The position numbers were made by a program, and so were the translations under genes. The notes under the pieces were generated by a model. That model was given only the letters and a program-made list of their open reading frames with translations, was not told where the DNA came from and did not search any database. A DNA stretch of 30,229 nt from IMG/VR virus record IMGVR_UViG_3300040758_000582, positions 1 through 30,229 of that record. The stretch is one strand, 5' to 3'. Origin of the DNA: a virus. Below are positions 1 through 15,850 of the stretch, in pieces; positions within the stretch are counted from its first letter, which is position 1, and the number at the start of each line of letters is the position of its first letter.

Positions 1-3000
1 ATGTCATTTCTTTCTACTCTCGAAACCATCGCGACTTACACGATTACTCCGCTGCTGATCCGCAAGTTGGAACAGAAGTTGGCTCCGCCACAGAAGGGCT
101 ATGCCACTACACAGCGGAATCCCATCGCGCCGTGGAGCATCGGGTACGGTCGCATCCGGGTTGGCGGCACGCTGATCTACGACCAGCAGTGGGGCAATAA
201 CAACCAGATGCGGGACATGGTGATCGAGCTGGCGGCGAATCAGTGCCAGATCGATGCGAACCATCCGATCACGCTGTTGCTCGATATGCAGCGTGTGCAG
301 ATCGACACGACGGCCGTTCCGACATCGGCATCGGCTGGATACTCGATTCCCGCCCCGAATCCTTGCAGTGGAACAAGCTTCACTCCGGTGCAACAGGCGG
401 GGAATTCGGCGGTCCGGATCAATTCGATCTCCCGCGCGAACGACGTTGTAACGGTAGCGCTGAACGCGGACATCCCGTACCTGATTCCAGGTGACCGGGT
501 GACCGTGCAGGGCGTCAATCACGGCATCTCCGGATCGGATCAGAGCTTTAACGGCGTGTTCCAGGTGGCGGAGATCACGGATGCTCCGGCGTCGCATGTG
601 GGCGGCGTAGTGGGCGCTGGAACGGGCTTGACGTTCACGTACCTATCGGGCGGTATCGCGAGCACGGCGAACGTGAGCGCGGGTCCGGCAAGCGTGGAGA
701 CGATGTGGGCGGACTACGGTCGCGACATCTACATGGAGGTGATGACCGGGAATCAGGCTCTCGGTCAGACTTTCGTGGGGATGACGGCGGGAACTCCGTG
801 GCAGGGGACAGGTAAGCTCTGCACTCCGGCGAGTCCGCAGCTTGCAGGCGGGACGGCTACCACGAATCAGTGGACCTCGACGTGTTCCGCTCAAGGCAAG
901 ACGCTGGTATTTCTGCGGTTGACTTACGCACAGAAATACTTTCAGGCGGGATTGCCTCAAATCAGCTTTTTGGCTTACGGGAAGAACGATATCTACGATC
1001 CGCGATTGGGCGCTTACGGCGCGGCCGGGACTACCGGATACACGGAGAATGCGGCGCTGTGTATCGCCGATCTACTGCATACCGGCGCTCCGCTGAGCGC
1101 TCCGTGGGTGGCTACGACTTCGTATGGAGCCGGGTGGGTGGCTTCGTTTCAGGCGCCGGGAGACACGAACGGGGTTGATTACGTCAACTGCGTAAACGCG
1201 AACATCGGGAATCAGCCGAATACCAGTCCGACGAAATGGGTACCGGTGACTCCGGCGAACTTGCCCACGAACTGGTCCGGATCTGTGACGTACGGACTCG
1301 GCGCGCTGACGGTGTTTCAGCCGGCGGGAAGCTCCGTGACTCGACAGTACGTGAGCCTGGTGTCGGGCAACACGGGGAATGAGCCGGACACGTATTCCTC
1401 ACAGTGGGGATGGATTCCGACTCCGGTGTATCCGTTGCCGGACTGGGGATACCGGTTGCCGTACGCGACGGGTCCGACTCCGCAGAATCCGTGCTATATC
1501 GACATCGCGTCATTGACGGCGGCGGCCAATATCTGCGATCAGACGGTGGCGCTGGCGAACGGCGGGACGGAGCCGATGTACGCTCTATCCGGGCAGTTCG
1601 ACCTCACAAAGAAACGCGGGGAGATCCTGCAAGACATGCTGACGGCGTGTGCGGGGCGACTGTCGATCATCGGCGGCCAATACGCGATACAGCCGGGATC
1701 ATGGACGGGCGGTAGCGCTCCTACGGTGAATCTGACTTCGATGGCGGCGGGTCCGTTCAAGTGGCGCGGGATCAGCTCTCGCGAACTGTTCAACGGGGTG
1801 AAGGGGACGTTCATCAGTCCACAGAATAAGTGGGCATCGACGGATTTCCCTTACTACGCGCAAGACAGTTGGCACGGATACAGCGGGCCTGCAATCTACA
1901 GCGGAGACATCAACCTTCAGGCTGACGGCGGAGAGCGGCGGTGGATGGAATTGCACCTGCCGTTCACGATTAGCGCGAGCACGGCACAGCGAATCGCGAA
2001 GATCATGCTGTTGCGGTCGCGGTGGGCGGCGTTCCAGGCGGGCGGCTCGGGAGGCGCGGGGACGTTCGCGCTGAACATGGCGGGGTATCAGTTCGCTCCG
2101 CTGGATGTTATCAACGCGTCGGTTCCGTTCCTGTGGAGTGGGACGAAAGCGCTGGAGGTGATCGAGACTCGGTTCAAGGTCGATGAGAACGGCGGGAAAC
2201 CGACGCTCGGGATTGAGATCGACGCACAGGCTACGGACTCCAGTATCTACGCATGGGCAACCACGGAGGAGTTGAGCGCGCAGGGTTACGCTCAGAGCCA
2301 GTTTCCTACCGGGACATTCCAGGATGACGTTCCGATGCCGTGGAGTCCGGGATACGTGGCTCCGCTGGCGGGAGACGCGGTGGGCGGCGCGGCGACGTTC
2401 GGCATTCAGCCGGTGTACGAGGAGGATGCACAGGGGAACGTGACTGCGAGTGTGCAGATCAAGGGCGCGGCTCCCATCAATGCTCTCGATGGAGAGGTGG
2501 CGGCTCCGCTGATTACGTGCGCGGGCAGTGCGACAGGCGGAACGGTTCCGGCCGGAAATTACGTGGTAGGGCTGGCGGCGTACGATAGCGGAGCGTCCAA
2601 TCACGCGGATACGGACTATCACAGCCTGGTATTCGTGGCGGTGGGCGGGAGCGGGTCGGGATCGATCTCCGTCACGGTGACGTGGGGATCGGGGGATGAC
2701 GGCGGAGATCTGTACGTGGGGTTGTGGAAACCTGGCGACGGGTACACGATGCACAAACAGATGACGCTGGCGCCGGGGCAGACCTCGGCGACGATTACGG
2801 CGTTCGACCGAACGACGGCCGGCGGACCGGACCCGAAGTTCGATCACTTCGGCGTTCTTCCATTCATGGTGGAGCATTCAGGCGTGTGGGATGGAGTGAT
2901 CCCATCGTCAGGATCGATCACGGCAACTACGGTGACGATTCCGGCTCCGACTTCGACGGTGGATCAGTGGGCGGGGTATCCGCTGTCACTGTTGGGACGT

Positions 3001-3948
3001 ATATCCGGCGAAGTGCCGGTGATTAACCTGCCGGTGGCTCACAACACTGCCAGTGCTGGCGGACTGGTGACATTCACGATTGGTCCGGGGGCGGACGGGA
3101 ATACGCTGGCAGATCTGCGCACGCTCTTGCAGGCGGGGGATCTGTTGCTGATGCGCGCGCGGTATACGTTCGATCCGACCACGGGGGCGTTCTCGGATCT
3201 CAACGCGGCGAATTCGTACTACCCGACAGGCGGGAATGCGGTGGTTGAACCGGGGCATGTGGCTATCATGCTGAGCGGTGCGGATGCCGGCGACATGCGG
3301 ACTATCCAGTCCATCACGGCGGACGTGAACGGCAACTTTACCGTGTTCAACCCAGCCAGTCCGTGGACGATCACTCCGGCGACTGGTGATTTGGTGGCGA
3401 TCTGCTCTCCGGCTGGATCGGAGTGGCCAAGTCCGCCAGTGACAGCGCAGAACGGTTCGGTGAGTGGCGTGATGGCACAGCCGGACGTATTGAACCTGGC
3501 AAACCAGACATGGCTACTCCTGGTGCGGACGGTTGATTCGGGCGGAAACCACGGTCCGGATTCGCTGGCTCCGATGCGCGACGTGTATTGCTTTGGGGCG
3601 GCGGGAAACAACGCCTCACCGGGCGCGACGTTGCAGATTGACGGAACGCTCGCGATTGGATCGAATCAAGCTCCTCCGTTGCAGTTGAACGCAAGCCGGA
3701 CGCCGAGCGCGGTACTGGCACTCGTGAGCACGGCTCCGACCGGAGCTGTAATCACGGTGAAGATCAACGTAGGCGGCACGCTGTGGATGTCGCTAACCAT
3801 TGCGGCGGGGACTACTTCTGTACAGGCAACGACGGCGCAACTCACGGCGGCGGGGTCGATCAACGGCAGTTCGCCGATCACTCTCGACATCACGGCTGTC
3901 GGGACTACGGTTCCGGGAGCCAATCTCTCGGTGTTTATCTACCTGTAA
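1..3948 (+). CDS. Phage tail tip / host-specificity protein (lambda J / GTA-type)
   Basis: This 1315-residue protein probably forms the tail tip or baseplate hub that contacts the host. The segment around residues 327-361 (YDPRLGAYG, then TENAALCIADLL) is the hallmark of J-like tail proteins. The hub domain follows, with a GEILQDMLTACAGRLSI stretch near 540-556 and a later long helix of HLPFTIS type. Inserted are a beta module at about 137-217 and two short carbohydrate-binding-like modules at about 368-415 and 424-472, each with W, Y, G, a GN-P core and a closing W. The C-terminal half is Gly/Ser/Thr-rich beta sequence. The ATG is the first base of the window, so its ribosome site cannot be seen and an upstream start is not excluded. 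The N-terminus (MSFLSTLETIATY) looks natural. A small exported-protein gene follows after 14 bases. Confidence 0.82.
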   Translation: MSFLSTLETIATYTITPLLIRKLEQKLAPPQKGYATTQRNPIAPWSIGYGRIRVGGTLIYDQQWGNNNQMRDMVIELAANQCQIDANHPITLLLDMQRVQIDTTAVPTSASAGYSIPAPNPCSGTSFTPVQQAGNSAVRINSISRANDVVTVALNADIPYLIPGDRVTVQGVNHGISGSDQSFNGVFQVAEITDAPASHVGGVVGAGTGLTFTYLSGGIASTANVSAGPASVETMWADYGRDIYMEVMTGNQALGQTFVGMTAGTPWQGTGKLCTPASPQLAGGTATTNQWTSTCSAQGKTLVFLRLTYAQKYFQAGLPQISFLAYGKNDIYDPRLGAYGAAGTTGYTENAALCIADLLHTGAPLSAPWVATTSYGAGWVASFQAPGDTNGVDYVNCVNANIGNQPNTSPTKWVPVTPANLPTNWSGSVTYGLGALTVFQPAGSSVTRQYVSLVSGNTGNEPDTYSSQWGWIPTPVYPLPDWGYRLPYATGPTPQNPCYIDIASLTAAANICDQTVALANGGTEPMYALSGQFDLTKKRGEILQDMLTACAGRLSIIGGQYAIQPGSWTGGSAPTVNLTSMAAGPFKWRGISSRELFNGVKGTFISPQNKWASTDFPYYAQDSWHGYSGPAIYSGDINLQADGGERRWMELHLPFTISASTAQRIAKIMLLRSRWAAFQAGGSGGAGTFALNMAGYQFAPLDVINASVPFLWSGTKALEVIETRFKVDENGGKPTLGIEIDAQATDSSIYAWATTEELSAQGYAQSQFPTGTFQDDVPMPWSPGYVAPLAGDAVGGAATFGIQPVYEEDAQGNVTASVQIKGAAPINALDGEVAAPLITCAGSATGGTVPAGNYVVGLAAYDSGASNHADTDYHSLVFVAVGGSGSGSISVTVTWGSGDDGGDLYVGLWKPGDGYTMHKQMTLAPGQTSATITAFDRTTAGGPDPKFDHFGVLPFMVEHSGVWDGVIPSSGSITATTVTIPAPTSTVDQWAGYPLSLLGRISGEVPVINLPVAHNTASAGGLVTFTIGPGADGNTLADLRTLLQAGDLLLMRARYTFDPTTGAFSDLNAANSYYPTGGNAVVEPGHVAIMLSGADAGDMRTIQSITADVNGNFTVFNPASPWTITPATGDLVAICSPAGSEWPSPPVTAQNGSVSGVMAQPDVLNLANQTWLLLVRTVDSGGNHGPDSLAPMRDVYCFGAAGNNASPGATLQIDGTLAIGSNQAPPLQLNASRTPSAVLALVSTAPTGAVITVKINVGGTLWMSLTIAAGTTSVQATTAQLTAAGSINGSSPITLDITAVGTTVPGANLSVFIYL

Positions 3949-3962
3949 AGGAACATGAACCA

Positions 3963-4328
3963 TTGAAACGACTCCTACTTTTGACGCTATCGACAGTCGC
4001 ATGTCTGCACTCTCCGGCGGGTCCGCCGGTTGTGAGAGTTCCGGTTCAGCAGCGGTTGTTTACGGCGTTGAGTCGTTTCGAGAATTGTAGGGCGTGGCGT
4101 AATCCCGGTTGCTTGCGGTTTGCCGGGCAGGCGGGCGCAGTGCGCGGGCCGGGCGGGTATGCGGTGTTCCGTAACCTACTCTTTGGGGAGCGCGCACTGC
4201 GACGCCAGATCGAGCACGGTCAAGGGCAGACGGTGTTTGAGTTCCTGACTCACTATAACCCTGGACATGCAAACTACCCTGCGAGGATCGCATCCATCGC
4301 TCAGTTGAGCTTAGCGGATGTGCTGTAA
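3963..4328 (+). CDS. Small exported phage protein, NPGC motif (P5-like structural family)
   Basis: This is a 121-residue protein from a TTG start. The TTG is chosen because AAGGA sits 10 bases upstream at 3948-3952 and because it gives a signal peptide (KRLLLLTLSTVAC). The only nearby ATG (3955) runs into a stop after three codons. The mature part has an N-P-G-C segment followed by LRFAGQ, GYAVFRNLLFGERAL and FLTHYNPGHANYPARI. This order (NPGN-like turn, F..Y/F.G..AL, then F...Y.P..-N) recalls phage structural proteins of the P5 or peptidoglycan-associated type. The assignment is by memory of the pattern. It lies between two giant tail genes, so a virion or wall-contact role is plausible. The Cys at the end of the hydrophobic stretch is only a poor lipobox match. 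Confidence 0.6.
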   Translation: MKRLLLLTLSTVACLHSPAGPPVVRVPVQQRLFTALSRFENCRAWRNPGCLRFAGQAGAVRGPGGYAVFRNLLFGERALRRQIEHGQGQTVFEFLTHYNPGHANYPARIASIAQLSLADVL

Positions 4329-8493: not shown

Positions 8494-8949
8494 ATGAAGC
8501 GACTCTTTGTAATCACCGTTGCGCTTGTACTCGCGGCACTCTGCGGGTTTGCGCAAGTGACGGTGAGTACGGCCGTCGAACCGGCGCTGAATGCGCCAGC
8601 GCGTTTCGGTGTATCGGCTGCGGTATCGGCAACGCTGCCTCCTACCTGGCTGGACGGGTGGGACGAAGGCAGGAACTCAGTGTCCATTCGGTATGGCTCC
8701 GGACGGACGATCCTCGGCGGGGTGGCGCGCAACTTCGTGGATTTCCTGCCGGGGCTGTCGCTAGTGGGCGACGTTCAGGCAGGTACGACAGGCGGGCGCG
8801 GAGTGATTCTGTACGGCGCGGCGGTGGCTACCGACCTGGGACGCGGATACTCCGTCACCTATGGCGCGCATATCAATAAGATCGCGGGACGGCCGATGTA
8901 TCCGAGCGCCTACGTGTCGATTGGGTACACGTTCGGAGGTTGGCGTTGA
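8494..8949 (+). CDS. Exported small beta-rich protein
   Basis: This is a 151-residue protein with a clear Sec signal peptide (MKRLFVITVALVLAALCGFA, likely cut before QVTVS). The mature region has alternating polar and hydrophobic stretches with many Gly and aromatic residues (NSVSIRYGSG, GYSVTYGAH, YPSAYVSIGYTFGG) and ends in an aromatic-rich strand. That is typical of small outer-membrane or periplasmic beta proteins. AGGAG lies 6-7 bases before the ATG. The next gene starts inside its stop codon, so the two are probably translated together. No family was recognised. It could also be a virion protein, although exported virion proteins are rare. Confidence 0.65.
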   Translation: MKRLFVITVALVLAALCGFAQVTVSTAVEPALNAPARFGVSAAVSATLPPTWLDGWDEGRNSVSIRYGSGRTILGGVARNFVDFLPGLSLVGDVQAGTTGGRGVILYGAAVATDLGRGYSVTYGAHINKIAGRPMYPSAYVSIGYTFGGWR

Positions 8950-9557
8950 ATCCTCTCACCCAATACAACGCGGTCAAATCCCAGTTGAGGGCAGGTGACC
9001 TGGTGATGTTCTGGGGTCGATCTCTGCTCTCTATCGCTATCGAACTGATCGACGCCGGACCAAGCCACTCCGCCATCGTTCGACAGGAAGCTTCAGCGGT
9101 GTCGGACGTGGTGATCTCACAGAGCACGATTCAGAAGTGGGGCGGCGTGGAGCGGAACGGTGTACAGGATGAGCCACTCGGCGCCACGATTGCCGGGTAT
9201 GGGCCGGCGGCGATTGCGGCTCTCCGGCTGAGCAATGAGGTTCGCGGCCGGATCAACTGGGAAACGTTCCATTCCGTCATTGGCGCGGCGGATGGGCGCG
9301 TGGAGTATGACATCCCGGATCTGTTTGAGTTCCTGATTCGCAGCGTTCCGGTACTGGGGGCGCGGGTCGCACAGGGAGAGCACAAGACGAAGATGGTCTG
9401 CTCTTCGTGGGTTACGGCCGTCCTGGAATCTTCGGGTGTGCTGACCGGGATCAATTGGACTCAGGTCACACCTCAACAGCTTGTCGAGATGCATATCTTC
9501 CGGGATTACCTGCCACTTCTCGGCAATCCCAAACTGTCACGGTTTAACACGATTTGA
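8946..9557 (+). CDS. Papain-like (permuted NlpC/P60-type) hydrolase or amidase
   Basis: This is a 203-residue protein. The TTG at 8946 is chosen because GGAGG at 8935-8939 gives a 6-base spacing and the start overlaps the upstream TGA. A TTG two codons earlier would have no spacing. The N-terminus reads LRAGDLVMFWGRS, then IELIDAGPSHSAIV with His41. Near the C-terminus KMVCSSWVTAVL carries Cys152. The order His first, Cys late, with the opening R-x-GD, is that of permuted NlpC/P60 (YiiX/LRAT-like) enzymes, which cleave peptide or amide bonds. There is no signal peptide. It lies between two exported-protein genes just before the lysis block. It may process cell wall or be virion-carried. The substrate is unknown. 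Confidence 0.68.
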   Translation: MNPLTQYNAVKSQLRAGDLVMFWGRSLLSIAIELIDAGPSHSAIVRQEASAVSDVVISQSTIQKWGGVERNGVQDEPLGATIAGYGPAAIAALRLSNEVRGRINWETFHSVIGAADGRVEYDIPDLFEFLIRSVPVLGARVAQGEHKTKMVCSSWVTAVLESSGVLTGINWTQVTPQQLVEMHIFRDYLPLLGNPKLSRFNTI

Positions 9558-9567
9558 AAGGAGTTTC

Positions 9568-10146
9568 ATGAAGAAACTGATTCTCGTTTTGCTTGCGCTC
9601 GGATGCTTAGCGTTCGGGCAAACTGCCACGGCTCCGGCTCAGCCTACCGCAACCACAACCACCACTCCGGCCGCAACGACAGTAGCCAATGTGACACTGC
9701 CGACGTACATCATGGGCGGTATCAGTTTCAACCAGCTTACCGGGGCCGCGGGCTTTGTGAGTGCGATTGTCCCGGAGAGTAACTCCGTGGGGCTGTATGG
9801 AAGCGCAACCACGGATCTGGTTCCGCTGAAAACCACGGTCAACGGCAAGTCGATCTACCTATTGAGCGGATCGGCACGGGCGGGAGAGCACAAGGTGGTG
9901 TATCAGGACACCAAGAATGCGGTGCTGATCGGCGGCGACATTGGGGTATCGTTTAGTAACTCCGCCGGAACGTCCGGGGTGACTCTCGGTGTCGCCGGCA
10001 GCTTCACGATTACCTACGTGCGGCAACTCAGTTCGCACTGGGCCGTGGGCCTGCCAATCCGGATGCTCTATATGAGCAACGTCGGACCGAATGGCGCCGG
10101 GGCCTGGAATCCGGTGGTTGAAGCCGGAATCATCTGGAAGCCGTAG
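9568..10146 (+). CDS. Exported beta-rich protein (full-length copy)
   Basis: This 192-residue protein starts at the ATG preceded by AAAGGAG (9557-9563). It has a signal peptide (MKKLILVLLALGCLAFG, likely cut near FGQ). A low-complexity Thr/Ala/Pro linker (about 20-45) follows, then a beta-rich domain with repeated GS, GV and YV strands that ends in WNPVVEAGIIWKP, consistent with a small outer-membrane-like barrel. The last 117 codons are repeated at 14022-14375 with about 87% base identity by hand count. Most of the differences are synonymous, so the family is under protein-level selection. The function is unknown. The upstream neighbour is a papain-like enzyme and the downstream neighbours are lysis genes. 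Confidence 0.72.
   Translation: MKKLILVLLALGCLAFGQTATAPAQPTATTTTTPAATTVANVTLPTYIMGGISFNQLTGAAGFVSAIVPESNSVGLYGSATTDLVPLKTTVNGKSIYLLSGSARAGEHKVVYQDTKNAVLIGGDIGVSFSNSAGTSGVTLGVAGSFTITYVRQLSSHWAVGLPIRMLYMSNVGPNGAGAWNPVVEAGIIWKP
9793..10146 (+). repeat. Donor-like copy of a 354-bp diverged direct repeat
   Basis: This segment aligns without gaps to 14022-14375 (offset 4229). I count about 46 mismatches in 354 bases, with about 9 amino-acid changes in 117. This copy is the 3' part of an intact exported-protein gene. Confidence 0.9.
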
Positions 10147-10189: not shown

Positions 10190-10426
10190 ATGGATCTCAC
10201 GACGGTTTTTGCGGCAGTAGAAGCGTCCCAGACAGCGAAGGCTAATGGGGCAACTCAGTTGGCGGCGGATCAGGCGAAGGCGGCTGCTATCGCCGCGGCA
10301 GTGCAGGCGGACACATCCAGCCTGGCGGACCTGACAGCGAAGGCGGACAGCGACATCAACGGCGCAATCTCCGCTCTTCAGGGTCTGCTGAGCACGGCTC
10401 CGGTCCCTACCGTTCCGGCGGTCTAG
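10190..10426 (+). CDS. Small Ala-rich helical protein
   Basis: This is a 78-residue protein with a good ribosome site (AAGGAAAGGG) upstream of the ATG. It is almost wholly predicted helix, rich in Ala, Gln, Asp and Lys (AADQAKAAAIAAAVQAD, LADLTAKADSDINGAISAL), with a Pro-rich tail. Small helical proteins of this type are common next to phage lysis genes, but no family was recognised. It is soluble by composition and has no membrane segment or signal peptide. Confidence 0.6.
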   Translation: MDLTTVFAAVEASQTAKANGATQLAADQAKAAAIAAAVQADTSSLADLTAKADSDINGAISALQGLLSTAPVPTVPAV

Positions 10427-10441
10427 CCGATTCACGACAGG

Positions 10442-10458
10442 GGGCGGGTTTCCCGCCT
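10442..10458 (+). other. GC hairpin between small genes, terminator-like without U tract
   Basis: GGCGGG (10443-10448) and CCCGCC (10452-10457) pair around a TTT loop, with a possible G-T pair outside. It lies in the 47-base gap before the holin-like gene. Without a following T run it is not a convincing intrinsic terminator. Confidence 0.35.
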
Positions 10459-10473
10459 CCTCAGGGGGCAAGG

Positions 10474-10650
10474 ATGAACAAAGACGTTACGACCAGCATC
10501 GCCGGAGGTGCGGCCGGACTGATGTTGCTGAATCAGGTTCGGTGGGAGGCGGTACCGCACGGGGAGTGCGTGAAGATCGGCGTCGCGGTTGTGCTGGCGG
10601 CGTTGGGGTACCTGATGTACCGGGGAAAGGGGCCGGACGCGAATGCTTGA
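10474..10650 (+). CDS. Small membrane protein, holin-like
   Basis: This 58-residue protein ends 8 bases inside the following lysozyme gene. It has a short hydrophobic stretch (SIAGGAAGLMLLN) and a clear membrane helix (VKIGVAVVLAALGYLMY) followed by a basic tail. Size, topology and tight coupling to the endolysin suggest a holin that lets lysozyme reach the wall. Functional proof is absent, and other small membrane proteins in this phage could fill that role. A G-rich stretch (CAGGGGGCAAGG) provides the ribosome site. Confidence 0.6.
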   Translation: MNKDVTTSIAGGAAGLMLLNQVRWEAVPHGECVKIGVAVVLAALGYLMYRGKGPDANA

Positions 10651-13383: not shown

Positions 13384-13533
13384 ATGTTGCGGACGATCAA
13401 TACCTACATCATCGACGGGTTGAGTACGGTGATGCTGCTGTTCTTTGCGGCGGCGGCGACGGTCCGCGTGTATGCGATGGCGGCATCGGCGATCCGTCGC
13501 GCGTTGCGGCCGGACGCGGAAGGGAAGGAATGA
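13384..13533 (+). CDS. Small single-pass membrane protein
   Basis: This 49-residue ORF is preceded by AAAGGG. Its stop overlaps the next gene's ATG (ATGA). It has one hydrophobic helix (TVMLLFFAAAATVRVYAMAA) and a basic, charged tail (IRRALRPDAEGKE). The function is unknown. It is one of seven small membrane proteins between 10474 and 17869. Confidence 0.55.
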   Translation: MLRTINTYIIDGLSTVMLLFFAAAATVRVYAMAASAIRRALRPDAEGKE

Positions 13534-13937
13534 GTAAACACATCGTAGCGGATAGCGGGAAGCGGGAATCGTTCGGCTCGGGGATGGTGCGGGACACCAG
13601 AGACGGCAAGGGACGATTCGAGTTGATAACGCCAGTGGCGCTGAGGCGGTTGGCGCTGGTGTACGAGAAGGGCGCGGCGAAGTATACGGCGCGGAATTGG
13701 GAGAAGGGATCTCCACTGTCGCGGTTCGCGGATTCGGCTCAGCGACATCTCAACGATTTCCAGATGATCTCACTGTTCAAGCGGGAGGGTATCCCGTTGG
13801 ATAGGCTGCCGGCGGATGTCAATCCGAATGAGGATCACCTGGCACAGGCGGTCTGGAACCTGTGTTGCATCATGCACCACGAAGATCTCCATCCGGAGTT
13901 GGACGATCTCACGGTGAAGCCGGAGGAGAAGCCGTGA
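13530..13937 (+). CDS. dATP/dGTP diphosphohydrolase-like protein (DUF5664 type)
   Basis: This 135-residue protein matches the family pattern of phage dATP/dGTP diphosphohydrolase N-terminal domains. It has GKGRFELI (26-33), GAAKYTARNWEKG (48-60), RHLND (72-76) and NEDHLAQAVWNL (100-111). Acidic and His residues in these motifs would bind a metal and the triphosphate. Related enzymes trim dATP and dGTP pools and in some phages help bias DNA toward modified purines. The ATG overlaps the upstream stop, and its own stop overlaps the GTG of a deoxyribosyltransferase-like gene, so the nucleotide genes form one coupled block. Confidence 0.75.
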   Translation: MSKHIVADSGKRESFGSGMVRDTRDGKGRFELITPVALRRLALVYEKGAAKYTARNWEKGSPLSRFADSAQRHLNDFQMISLFKREGIPLDRLPADVNPNEDHLAQAVWNLCCIMHHEDLHPELDDLTVKPEEKP

Positions 13938-14188
13938 ACGCACAAGAGAGGACTGTCTATCTCGCGGGGCCGATTACGGGCCTGACTTTCAACGGCGCGA
14001 ACGACTGGCGCAAGGATGTCACTGTACGGCAGTGCGACTACCGACCTGGTTCCGCTGAAAACCACCGTCAACGGGAAGTCGATCTACCTGTTGAGTGGCT
14101 CGGCGCGCGCGGGCGAGCACAAGGTGGTGTATCAGGACTCCAAGAATGCAGTGCTGATCGGCGGCGACGTTGGGGCATCGTTCAGTAA
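13934..14188 (+). pseudogene. Nucleoside 2-deoxyribosyltransferase-like gene, truncated by recombination
   Basis: The GTG at 13934 overlaps the upstream stop (GTGA). The first 29 codons give VYLAGPITGL, then NGANDWRKDV, the N-terminal nucleotide-binding strand and loop of nucleoside 2-deoxyribosyltransferase-like proteins. At about 14020 the sequence switches into a diverged copy of the exported-protein gene at 9568, in another frame. The reading frame continues as unrelated residues to a stop at 14188. The normal enzyme has about 130-160 residues, so the catalytic part is missing. The loss is probably real rather than a reading error, because the inserted segment is itself a clean gapless homolog. 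Confidence 0.75.
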
Positions 14189-14375
14189 TTCTGCCGGAGG
14201 GTCCGGGGTGACTCTCGGGGTCGCGGGGAGTTTCACGCTGACTTACGTGCGGCAACTCAGTCCGCATTGGGCGGTGGGCATACCGGTCCGGATGCTCTAC
14301 ATGAGCAACGTGGGACCGAACGGGACGGGAGCCTGGAATCCGGTGGTCGAAGCCGGAATCATCTGGAAGCCGTAG
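14016..14375 (+). pseudogene. 3' fragment of an exported beta-rich protein, second copy
   Basis: This 119-codon open frame begins at an ATG formed at the recombination junction. From codon 3 it matches the C-terminal 117 residues of the exported protein at 9568-10146. The signal peptide and Thr-rich linker are missing. AAGG touches the ATG with no proper spacing, so translation is doubtful. If it is made, the product would stay in the cytoplasm. Divergence is mostly at third codon positions, so the fragment evolved as a working gene elsewhere before it was joined here. Confidence 0.7.
14022..14375 (+). repeat. Second copy of the 354-bp diverged direct repeat
   Basis: This copy is gapless against 9793-10146. 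Homology starts at CTGTA and ends right after the shared TAGC at the stop. Its left end is fused to the deoxyribosyltransferase-like gene. After its right end, 58 bases precede the DUF1599 gene and include a 14-codon ATG frame at 14379-14423 with no recognisable match. Confidence 0.9.
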
Positions 14376-14433
14376 CTTATGCGTCTGGCGGAGTTCATCG
14401 AACGCTCGTGGTGTGGGAAGTGAGGGACTACTA

Positions 14434-14754
14434 ATGGATACGCAGCAATTTGTTAAGGACTTCCGCGCACTCGCGAACCAGATAGCGGACACGGTGGAGC
14501 GGAAGAATGCGGATTACAGCCATTCCGACGCAGATCCGTTCCGCAACTTCCTGTACATCGAGAATCTGGCGGCTGGCCGGGTGTCGGCGGCGGATGGGAT
14601 TCTGGTGCGCATGTCGGACAAGATGATGCGCATCTCCAACCTGATCGCGCCGGGGGTAGTGGAAGCGGTTGAGGGGGAGAAGGTGGATGATACGTGCGTG
14701 GACCTGGCGGCATATGCGCTGATCCTCGCACTGCTGTTGAGGAGTCGGCGATGA
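14434..14754 (+). CDS. DUF1599 / nucleotide modification associated domain 1 protein
   Basis: This is a 106-residue protein from the ATG preceded by GAGGGA six bases upstream. Conserved blocks are KNADYS (24-29), DPFRNF (34-39), GILVRMSDKMMRISNL (55-70) and EKVDDTCVDLAAYALI (82-97), the pattern of PF07659. The domain was named from its association with phage nucleotide or DNA modification genes and resembles MazG-type all-helical pyrophosphohydrolases. Its exact reaction is not established to my knowledge. It lies in the nucleotide-pool block and its stop overlaps the start of the HD hydrolase. Confidence 0.78.
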   Translation: MDTQQFVKDFRALANQIADTVERKNADYSHSDADPFRNFLYIENLAAGRVSAADGILVRMSDKMMRISNLIAPGVVEAVEGEKVDDTCVDLAAYALILALLLRSRR

Positions 14755-15341
14755 TTACATTTACGGGTACGCACGTGGTGCGAGAGTTCGGCGCGCCGTC
14801 GATCCACGACTTGGCGGTACAGCTCATGCGGCTGTGCCGTTTCGGCGGTGCCGGACAGTTATTCTGGCCGGTAGGGATGCATTCGCTTCTGGTAGCCGAT
14901 CTGCTGCCGAGGGAACTGGAGGTGTACGGGTTACTGCATGACGCGGCAGAGGCGGCCGTCGCGGATGTGTGCCGTCCATTCAAGACGGACGCGGCGCGCG
15001 AGGTGGAGGCGATGGTACAGGCGCGGGTATACTCTCATCTGGGAGTTCCGGCGCCAAACGGAGAGCAGGCGGAGTTGGTTCACCGGGCCGACATGAGGGC
15101 CGTCAACGTAGAGGGAGCGTCGGTTTGCGGGCCGCGCGGCTATCGGCTCGTACAGCCGAACTTTCGGTTGGACCAAGAGGCGGCGGAGGTGCTTGACCGC
15201 TACCTGGAGAGGTTCCGGCCGGAGGATGCGATCCGACCGCAAGGGCAATGGCCGGCGGAATTCGAGCGACGTTTGACGGTCGCTCTTACGCGATTGCATC
15301 ACACGCCGGCATATGTCGAGCAGTACACGGGGAAGGCCTAG
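14751..15341 (+). CDS. HD-domain nucleotide phosphohydrolase (YfbR/DatZ-like)
   Basis: This is a 196-residue protein. The ATG has GAGGAG seven bases upstream and overlaps the preceding stop. Metal-binding residues of the HD superfamily are visible: His44 (VGMHS), His63-Asp64 with Glu67 (LLHDAAEA), Asp72 (VADV) and Asp114 (HRADMRA). The closest patterns I know are 5'-deoxynucleotidase YfbR and the phage dATPase DatZ, both of which act on deoxynucleotides. Together with the diphosphohydrolase-like and DUF1599 genes it suggests control of the dNTP pool. The substrate cannot be fixed by eye. It converges with the leftward exported-protein gene, sharing four bases (CTAG). Confidence 0.75.
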   Translation: MITFTGTHVVREFGAPSIHDLAVQLMRLCRFGGAGQLFWPVGMHSLLVADLLPRELEVYGLLHDAAEAAVADVCRPFKTDAAREVEAMVQARVYSHLGVPAPNGEQAELVHRADMRAVNVEGASVCGPRGYRLVQPNFRLDQEAAEVLDRYLERFRPEDAIRPQGQWPAEFERRLTVALTRLHHTPAYVEQYTGKA

Positions 15342-15850
15342 AGAGTGGGGTCCGGTTTGCGCTCGGCGTACCGGACCGTCACTATCCCGAAGGATTTCGA
15401 TTCGATCCACTCCAGGGTGACCATCGAGGATTTGAGGCGCCAGACGATAGAACGGGTTTCGATGGTGCTGCCAAAGGCGGTGCGTTCGGAGACGGTATCG
15501 GAGCTGGTGGGTTTGCCGTACTTGGCGGTGAGTCCGTCCTTCAAGGCGTCGAAGGCGCTAGGGCGGGCGGCGTCCTGAGATACGGAGACGTTGACGGCCG
15601 TCAAGCGGTCCTGATCGGTGGGGAACTTGAACTTGGCGGTTGCCTGGTAGTTGCCGAGTTGCATGGCGGGGGCTTCCAGGCGGATGAACTGGCCTAGATC
15701 CTTTTCGGGCGGGTTGACGGGGCGGACGGTGGGGAATGCGGCTTGCACCTCGGCGGCGGTCATTCCCCACTTGGCGGCGGACCATCCGGTGGCATCGGGG
15801 GTCTGTGCGAGGGCGGCTACGGCGGCGGCCAGCAGAAGCGTGAACTTCAT
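15338..15850 (-). CDS. Exported protein of the leftward cassette
   Basis: This is a 170-residue protein. The internal Met is chosen because it gives a proper signal peptide (MKFTLLLAAAVAALA, likely cut before QTPDA). The mature region begins WSAAKWGMTAAEVQAAFP, a pattern seen in small exported proteins where a W-GM-x-x-E-V segment binds or folds over a small sheet. A strand-rich part follows (TVSERTAFGS, ETRSIVWRL, MVTLEWIES). It lies 20 bases downstream of a ribbon-helix-helix gene on the same strand. The two look like a moron cassette expressed from the prophage. The function is unknown. Its stop overlaps the stop of the convergent HD gene. Confidence 0.68.
   Translation of the reverse strand: MKFTLLLAAAVAALAQTPDATGWSAAKWGMTAAEVQAAFPTVRPVNPPEKDLGQFIRLEAPAMQLGNYQATAKFKFPTDQDRLTAVNVSVSQDAARPSAFDALKDGLTAKYGKPTSSDTVSERTAFGSTIETRSIVWRLKSSMVTLEWIESKSFGIVTVRYAERKPDPTL

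Follow-up and report, generated by a model that had tools for sequence, protein, structure and literature searches.

Parts of four genes, belonging to three loci, joined end to end within about 500 bases of an uncultivated phage record

How does a reading frame that starts as a nucleoside deoxyribosyltransferase-like gene come to run into a diverged copy of an exported-protein gene whose complete form lies elsewhere in the same phage DNA? We addressed this question in the window, i.e., the whole 30,229-bp stretch of an uncultivated linear IMG/VR virus record, which contains no runs of N. The record is shorter than those of three of its four closest relatives and is probably a fragment. The relatives that proved informative came from scans of viral_contigs and are L003 (IMGVR 3300050021_000841), L005 (3300039307_000389), L006 (3300033402_000025), L007 (IMGVR 3300050334_000013) and L027 (IMGVR 3300027911_000020), the last of which was reached by querying with the HD protein described below. 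Comparison with them showed that three loci meet at two joints, J1 and J2, sharing 0 and 1 bp, and that a stretch of about 500 bases holds, one directly after another, pieces of four genes from these loci, each of them whole elsewhere. The features concerned are as follows.

9568..10146, + strand: complete exported-protein gene, 192 aa, with an N-terminus that is signal-peptide-like by eye; a diverged homologue of the captured piece
13530..13937, + strand: dATP/dGTP diphosphohydrolase N-terminal family gene (PF18909, E 7e-19), directly upstream of the next feature
13934..14021, + strand: stub of a nucleoside deoxyribosyltransferase-superfamily (DRT) gene, its first 29 codons and 1 base, then J1
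14022..14375, + strand: diverged 3' part of the exported-protein gene, 117 codons and stop, in a frame open from the ATG at 14016, without a signal peptide
14376..14404, + strand: rest of the captured piece, a 3-base spacer and the first 26 bases (MRLAEFIE+) of an L003-type small gene
14404..14434, + strand: J2, where a single base (14404) is shared, and the end of gene X, its final 9 codons and stop (LVVWEVRDY)
14434..14754, + strand: intact phrog_1485 gene (E 5.9e-15), which follows gene X in L007
14751..15341, + strand: intact HD-type deoxyribonucleoside 5'-monophosphate phosphatase-like gene (phrog_318, E 1.3e-23)

Left of J1, the stub (13934-14020) closely resembles the DRT of L003: 26 of 29 residues are identical and 12 of 87 bases differ, giving nine silent and three non-silent codon differences over the 29 codons. 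The original prediction proposed that an intact DRT be sought in related phages, and a whole gene of 153-154 aa is indeed present in L003, L005 and L006. These are three of the 11 other records compared by protein, a count that leaves out a fourth, weak match (E 0.0016) inside a 1091-residue frame. The DRT of L003 matches PF05014 with E 8.5e-9, and the same three of the six records examined score above the Pfam cut-off for this family; the family search found no match in the window and none in the L027 record, and the stub frame had no Pfam match of any kind. In a base-by-base view, the two sides of J1 have no base in common, the last DRT base being 14021 and the first of the captured piece 14022, and the alignments of the window through the DRT end at 14019 (L003), 14011 (L005) and 14018 (L006), so the predicted switch near 14020, after 29 DRT-like codons, is now placed at 14021/14022. 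The prediction that the frames do not match and that the enzyme is lost holds as well. The DRT frame from 13934 differs from the exported-piece frame from 14016 and ends at 14188 inside the captured piece, leaving an incomplete catalytic domain (29 of about 153 codons), and because PF05014 is no longer matched anywhere in the window we take the enzyme to be lost from this record.

Among solved structures, the intact DRT came closest to Blasticidin M (E 5e-5), with CMP hydrolases as weaker matches (E 0.03-0.06), so the enzyme may hydrolyze nucleotides instead of acting as a transferase. The L005 record (G002) contains, besides its intact DRT, a second, weaker deoxyribosyltransferase-like match at 2853-3071 that falls below the Pfam cut-off. 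Across 13530-15341 of the window and its counterparts in the relatives, the set of nucleotide-metabolism genes (dATP/dGTP diphosphohydrolase, DRT or HD phosphatase) varies and resembles the sets of Z-genome phages. The PurZ family PF00709 was found in none of the six records, which are possibly fragments, and in 14 of 14 control genomes, and its absence makes a Z-genome reading of these phages less likely. The domain DUF5664 is presumably the present PF18909. In a study of Arthrobacter phage Wayne, a phage examined for Z-DNA, an NDT-family enzyme is described as occurring together with a DUF5664 protein (PMC12884076). Similarly to what that text describes, the DRT of L003, L005 and L006 directly follows a gene of the PF18909 dATP/dGTP diphosphohydrolase type (alignment A2, for which no solved structure was matched), the order seen also with the stub in the window; as differences, the six records gave no PurZ-family match and thus show no sign of Z-DNA, and the DRT is broken in the window.

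Right of J1, the window continues with the exported-protein gene. Positions 14022-14375 align without gaps with 9793-10146, a direct repeat longer than any other found in the window, and 46 of the 354 bases differ (13% divergence). Both the ungapped match and the count of about 46 mismatches, roughly 36 of them silent, had been predicted and stand: third codon positions account for 36 of the 46 differences, and when read in the frame of gene 9568-10146 the differing codons comprise 33 silent and nine residue-changing ones (dN ~0.04, dS ~0.54-0.61). As also predicted, the fragment has no signal peptide, the 119-aa frame 14016-14375 being without the first 75 residues of the exported protein. 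The length given for the segment, 354 bp, is right for the match itself but not for the captured piece, which runs past the stop codon of the exported gene to 14404 and thus measures 383 bp (14022-14404). Its end at 14379-14404 agrees in 22 of 26 bases with the start of a small gene at L003 10512-10537, whereas 200 shuffles over L003 reached 19 at most. That small gene follows the exported gene in L003 and not in the window, where the sequence after 10146 is of a different type.

The exported-gene part of the piece (14022-14375) is 89.0% identical to L003 10112-10465, and the exported-gene region of L003 was the sole match between J1 and J2 among the 12 relatives compared; the exported gene as a whole was likewise present in one of 12 other records, that of L003. 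A scan of viral_contigs for the donor, using the protein alone and alignment A1, returned one contig only, the source of L003. No match to the exported gene was obtained by tblastn in 50,697 phage records, and bacterial and archaeal genomes matched neither alignment A1 nor the conserved 382-aa protein A3. The exported protein 9568-10146 matched no family in Pfam, PHROG or NCBIfam, and its predicted structure had a mean pLDDT of 37. Between the tail and lysis genes, differing small proteins with starts that look like signal peptides by eye occupy what appears to be a variable exported-protein slot (8494-8949 and 9568-10146 in the window, 4306-4920 in L006, and 4533-5072 in L007); the window protein 8494-8949 also had no family match. 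Just before the exported gene of L003, at 9634-9861, lies a 76-aa frame whose residues 24-75 align (40% over 53 columns) with the C-terminus of a 205-aa protein, whole at 8940-9557 in the window. It seems to be a further gene cut short where mosaic segments meet, a scar similar to that of the window.

Over 348 aligned bases, the piece and the window main copy differ at 46 positions, the main copy and L003 at 44, and the piece and L003 at 39. The private changes of the piece are 13 silent and five non-silent, those of the window main copy 19 and four, and those of L003 13 and three. The proportion in the piece (5/18) is far from the neutral expectation of 74% non-silent changes (P = 4.6e-5) and does not differ from that of the other two lineages together (32 silent to 7 non-silent, Fisher P = 0.49). 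Since its private changes are mostly silent, the piece arrived already diverged. We read it as a third lineage of the exported gene, one that accumulated its differences while still functional and whose capture is recent compared with that divergence, with no visible decay; the DRT stub and the gene X stub look fresh too. The excess of silent changes thus bears out the original prediction that an already diverged, selected homologue was captured. A fresh duplication within the genome does not fit, since the two copies are 13% diverged, mostly at silent positions, and the 26 bases downstream are of the L003 type and not that of the window's own locus.

The open frame itself might suggest a new functional gene, in which capture behind a ready-made ATG turned an exported protein into a cytoplasmic one of 119 aa. 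The frame 14016-14375 has no internal stop and few non-silent private changes, but selection before the capture accounts for the silent pattern. In addition, no well-spaced ribosome-binding sequence was seen by eye before the ATG at 14016, this triplet is already present at the same place in the L003 DRT, out of frame, and the missing N-terminal residues include the signal peptide. We therefore regard this explanation as very improbable and the frame as debris.

The donor of the piece is a separate matter. It may have been copied from the lineage's own locus while this was still of the L003 type, the locus at 9.6-10.6 kb having been replaced afterwards. The locus is itself mosaic, because downstream of 10146 the window resembles L005 and L006 rather than L003 (the match to L005 and L006 covers 10396-10625), and the three copies are roughly equidistant, both of which would fit such a history. 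On the other hand, it requires an extra replacement that swapped the exported gene too, and the slight excess of sites that the piece shares with L003 (23 vs 16) is not significant (P = 0.34) and does not decide. We consider a source in the lineage's own locus unlikely. The L003-type neighbor sequence at the right end of the piece favors an L003-like donor.

J2 lies at 14404. The alignments of the window to L007 and to L027 both begin exactly at 14404, and 14404-14437 agrees in 31 of 34 bases with each of L007 (from 7971) and L027 3361-3394, whereas none of 200 shuffles over L007 exceeded 22 bases. A complete gene X is present in two of the six records examined, the window's included, namely L007 (7435-8001) and L027, and a query of viral_contigs with gene X matched the L007 contig only. 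In L027, gene X (2830-3391) and the frame at 3370-3987 are overlapping tandem paralogues (31% over residues 98-188) that share a C-terminal WEVR-D/N-Y and have no PHROG match. The remnant of gene X in the window, the last of the pieces, overlaps the start of the intact gene 14434-14754, whose product is 83% identical to that of L007 over residues 1-90. The HD phosphatase-like protein that follows is 64% identical to that of L007 and 66% to that of L027, and the window remains collinear with L007 from 14404 to 15799 (69.3% over 1409 columns). The gene order is therefore that of L003, L005 and L006 to the left of the joints and that of L007 to the right. Exchange among related phages, as proposed in the original prediction, fits this arrangement, but the second joint, into gene X, and the two gene orders of the flanks had been missed.

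Could these joints be an artefact, in which a library chimera or the assembly of mixed strains joined unrelated reads at 14021/14022 and 14404? The source is an uncultivated linear IMG/VR record, related phages carrying all three loci exist, and the joints occur in no independent record, as a scan of viral_contigs with the J1 pattern gave 0 matches, possibly with the window's own record omitted from the scan. However, assemblers join sequences on common words that are tens of bases long, and the joints share merely 0 and 1 bp. The G+C content is even across the segments (0.599, 0.614 and 0.619), without N runs, and two chimeras would be required 383 bp apart, in the same orientation and with the flanks in proper gene order. 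Because there are no shared words at the joints and both flanks keep their proper order, we judge an artefact to be quite unlikely.

The best explanation, to which we give a probability of about three in four, is illegitimate recombination between related phages, with the 383-bp piece of a third locus caught at the joint. The partners would be tailed phages that belong to one loose family. The left one would have carried the dGTP-diphosphohydrolase gene followed by the DRT, as in L003, L005 and L006, and broken at codon 29 of the DRT; the right one would have had the L007-like order of gene X, phrog_1485 gene and HD phosphatase, with its break inside gene X, 9 codons short of the end. What came to lie between these ends would be the last part of the exported gene together with the beginning of the gene downstream of it, in an L003-like arrangement. 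One event, or two in succession, may have joined the ends in a mixed infection or with a resident prophage, and the recombinant could have survived as the right-hand genes stayed whole and the DRT and gene X were dispensable, the captured piece presumably being inert debris. Consistent with illegitimate joints, the relationship changes abruptly with 0 or 1 shared bp, and each side is collinear with a different relative. Homeologous recombination was considered and set aside, as it needs similarity at the crossover, which is absent as far as the relatives show: judged on these relatives as stand-ins for the true donors, no run of similarity links the DRT with the exported gene at J1 or the small gene with gene X at J2. 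No recombinase or end-joining gene was found among the window ORFs scanned, apart from PHROG 'RusA-like' labels on the beta-clamp protein.

A narrower version of illegitimate recombination, which we hold only tentatively and think rather doubtful, is that the broken ends of two coinfecting phages were joined in one act of repair, with 383 bp of the third locus copied or ligated between them and the DRT swapped for the HD phosphatase. In templated or filler insertion at the joints of end-joining repair, short foreign DNA is caught between two joined ends. The window has such a short piece of other DNA between two joined ends; it differs in that neither an enzyme nor a single-event origin of both joints finds support there, and typical filler is shorter than 383 bp. 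If this version is true, the scar would show that joints of the templated-insertion type occur in phage evolution. One possible deoxynucleotide-degrading enzyme, the DRT, would have been exchanged for another, the HD phosphatase, beside the same dGTP-diphosphohydrolase gene, and such an enzyme swap would let selection keep the recombinant.

Illegitimate recombination as a source of phage mosaicism is debated by Martinsohn 2008 (PMC2327257) and De Paepe 2014 (PMC3945230). According to the latter, homology traces occur at only ~30% of mosaics, the remainder being left open, and phages swap small fragments of genes far more frequently than whole functional modules (PMC3945230). Homeologous recombination is described as efficient with the phage lambda Red proteins (PMC2327257), and a survey of gene flow among phages presents evidence for both routes (PMC8136500). 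Illegitimate-recombination mosaics resemble the window in their abrupt switches of relationship without a border signal; the window differs in that its joints are 383 bp apart and inside genes, not at gene borders, and its parts are traceable to three loci. Homeologous Red/Rad52-like recombination also exchanges diverged sequence between coinfecting or resident phages, but it requires similarity at the crossover, and the window has none at J1 and one base at J2.

For annotation, the frames 13934-14188 and 14016-14375 are not to be taken as working genes. The scar is a well-resolved but ordinary case of phage mosaicism. As a young scar in which both crossovers are placed to the base and the parts are traced to three loci, it is a useful case for the homology-free side of this debate.
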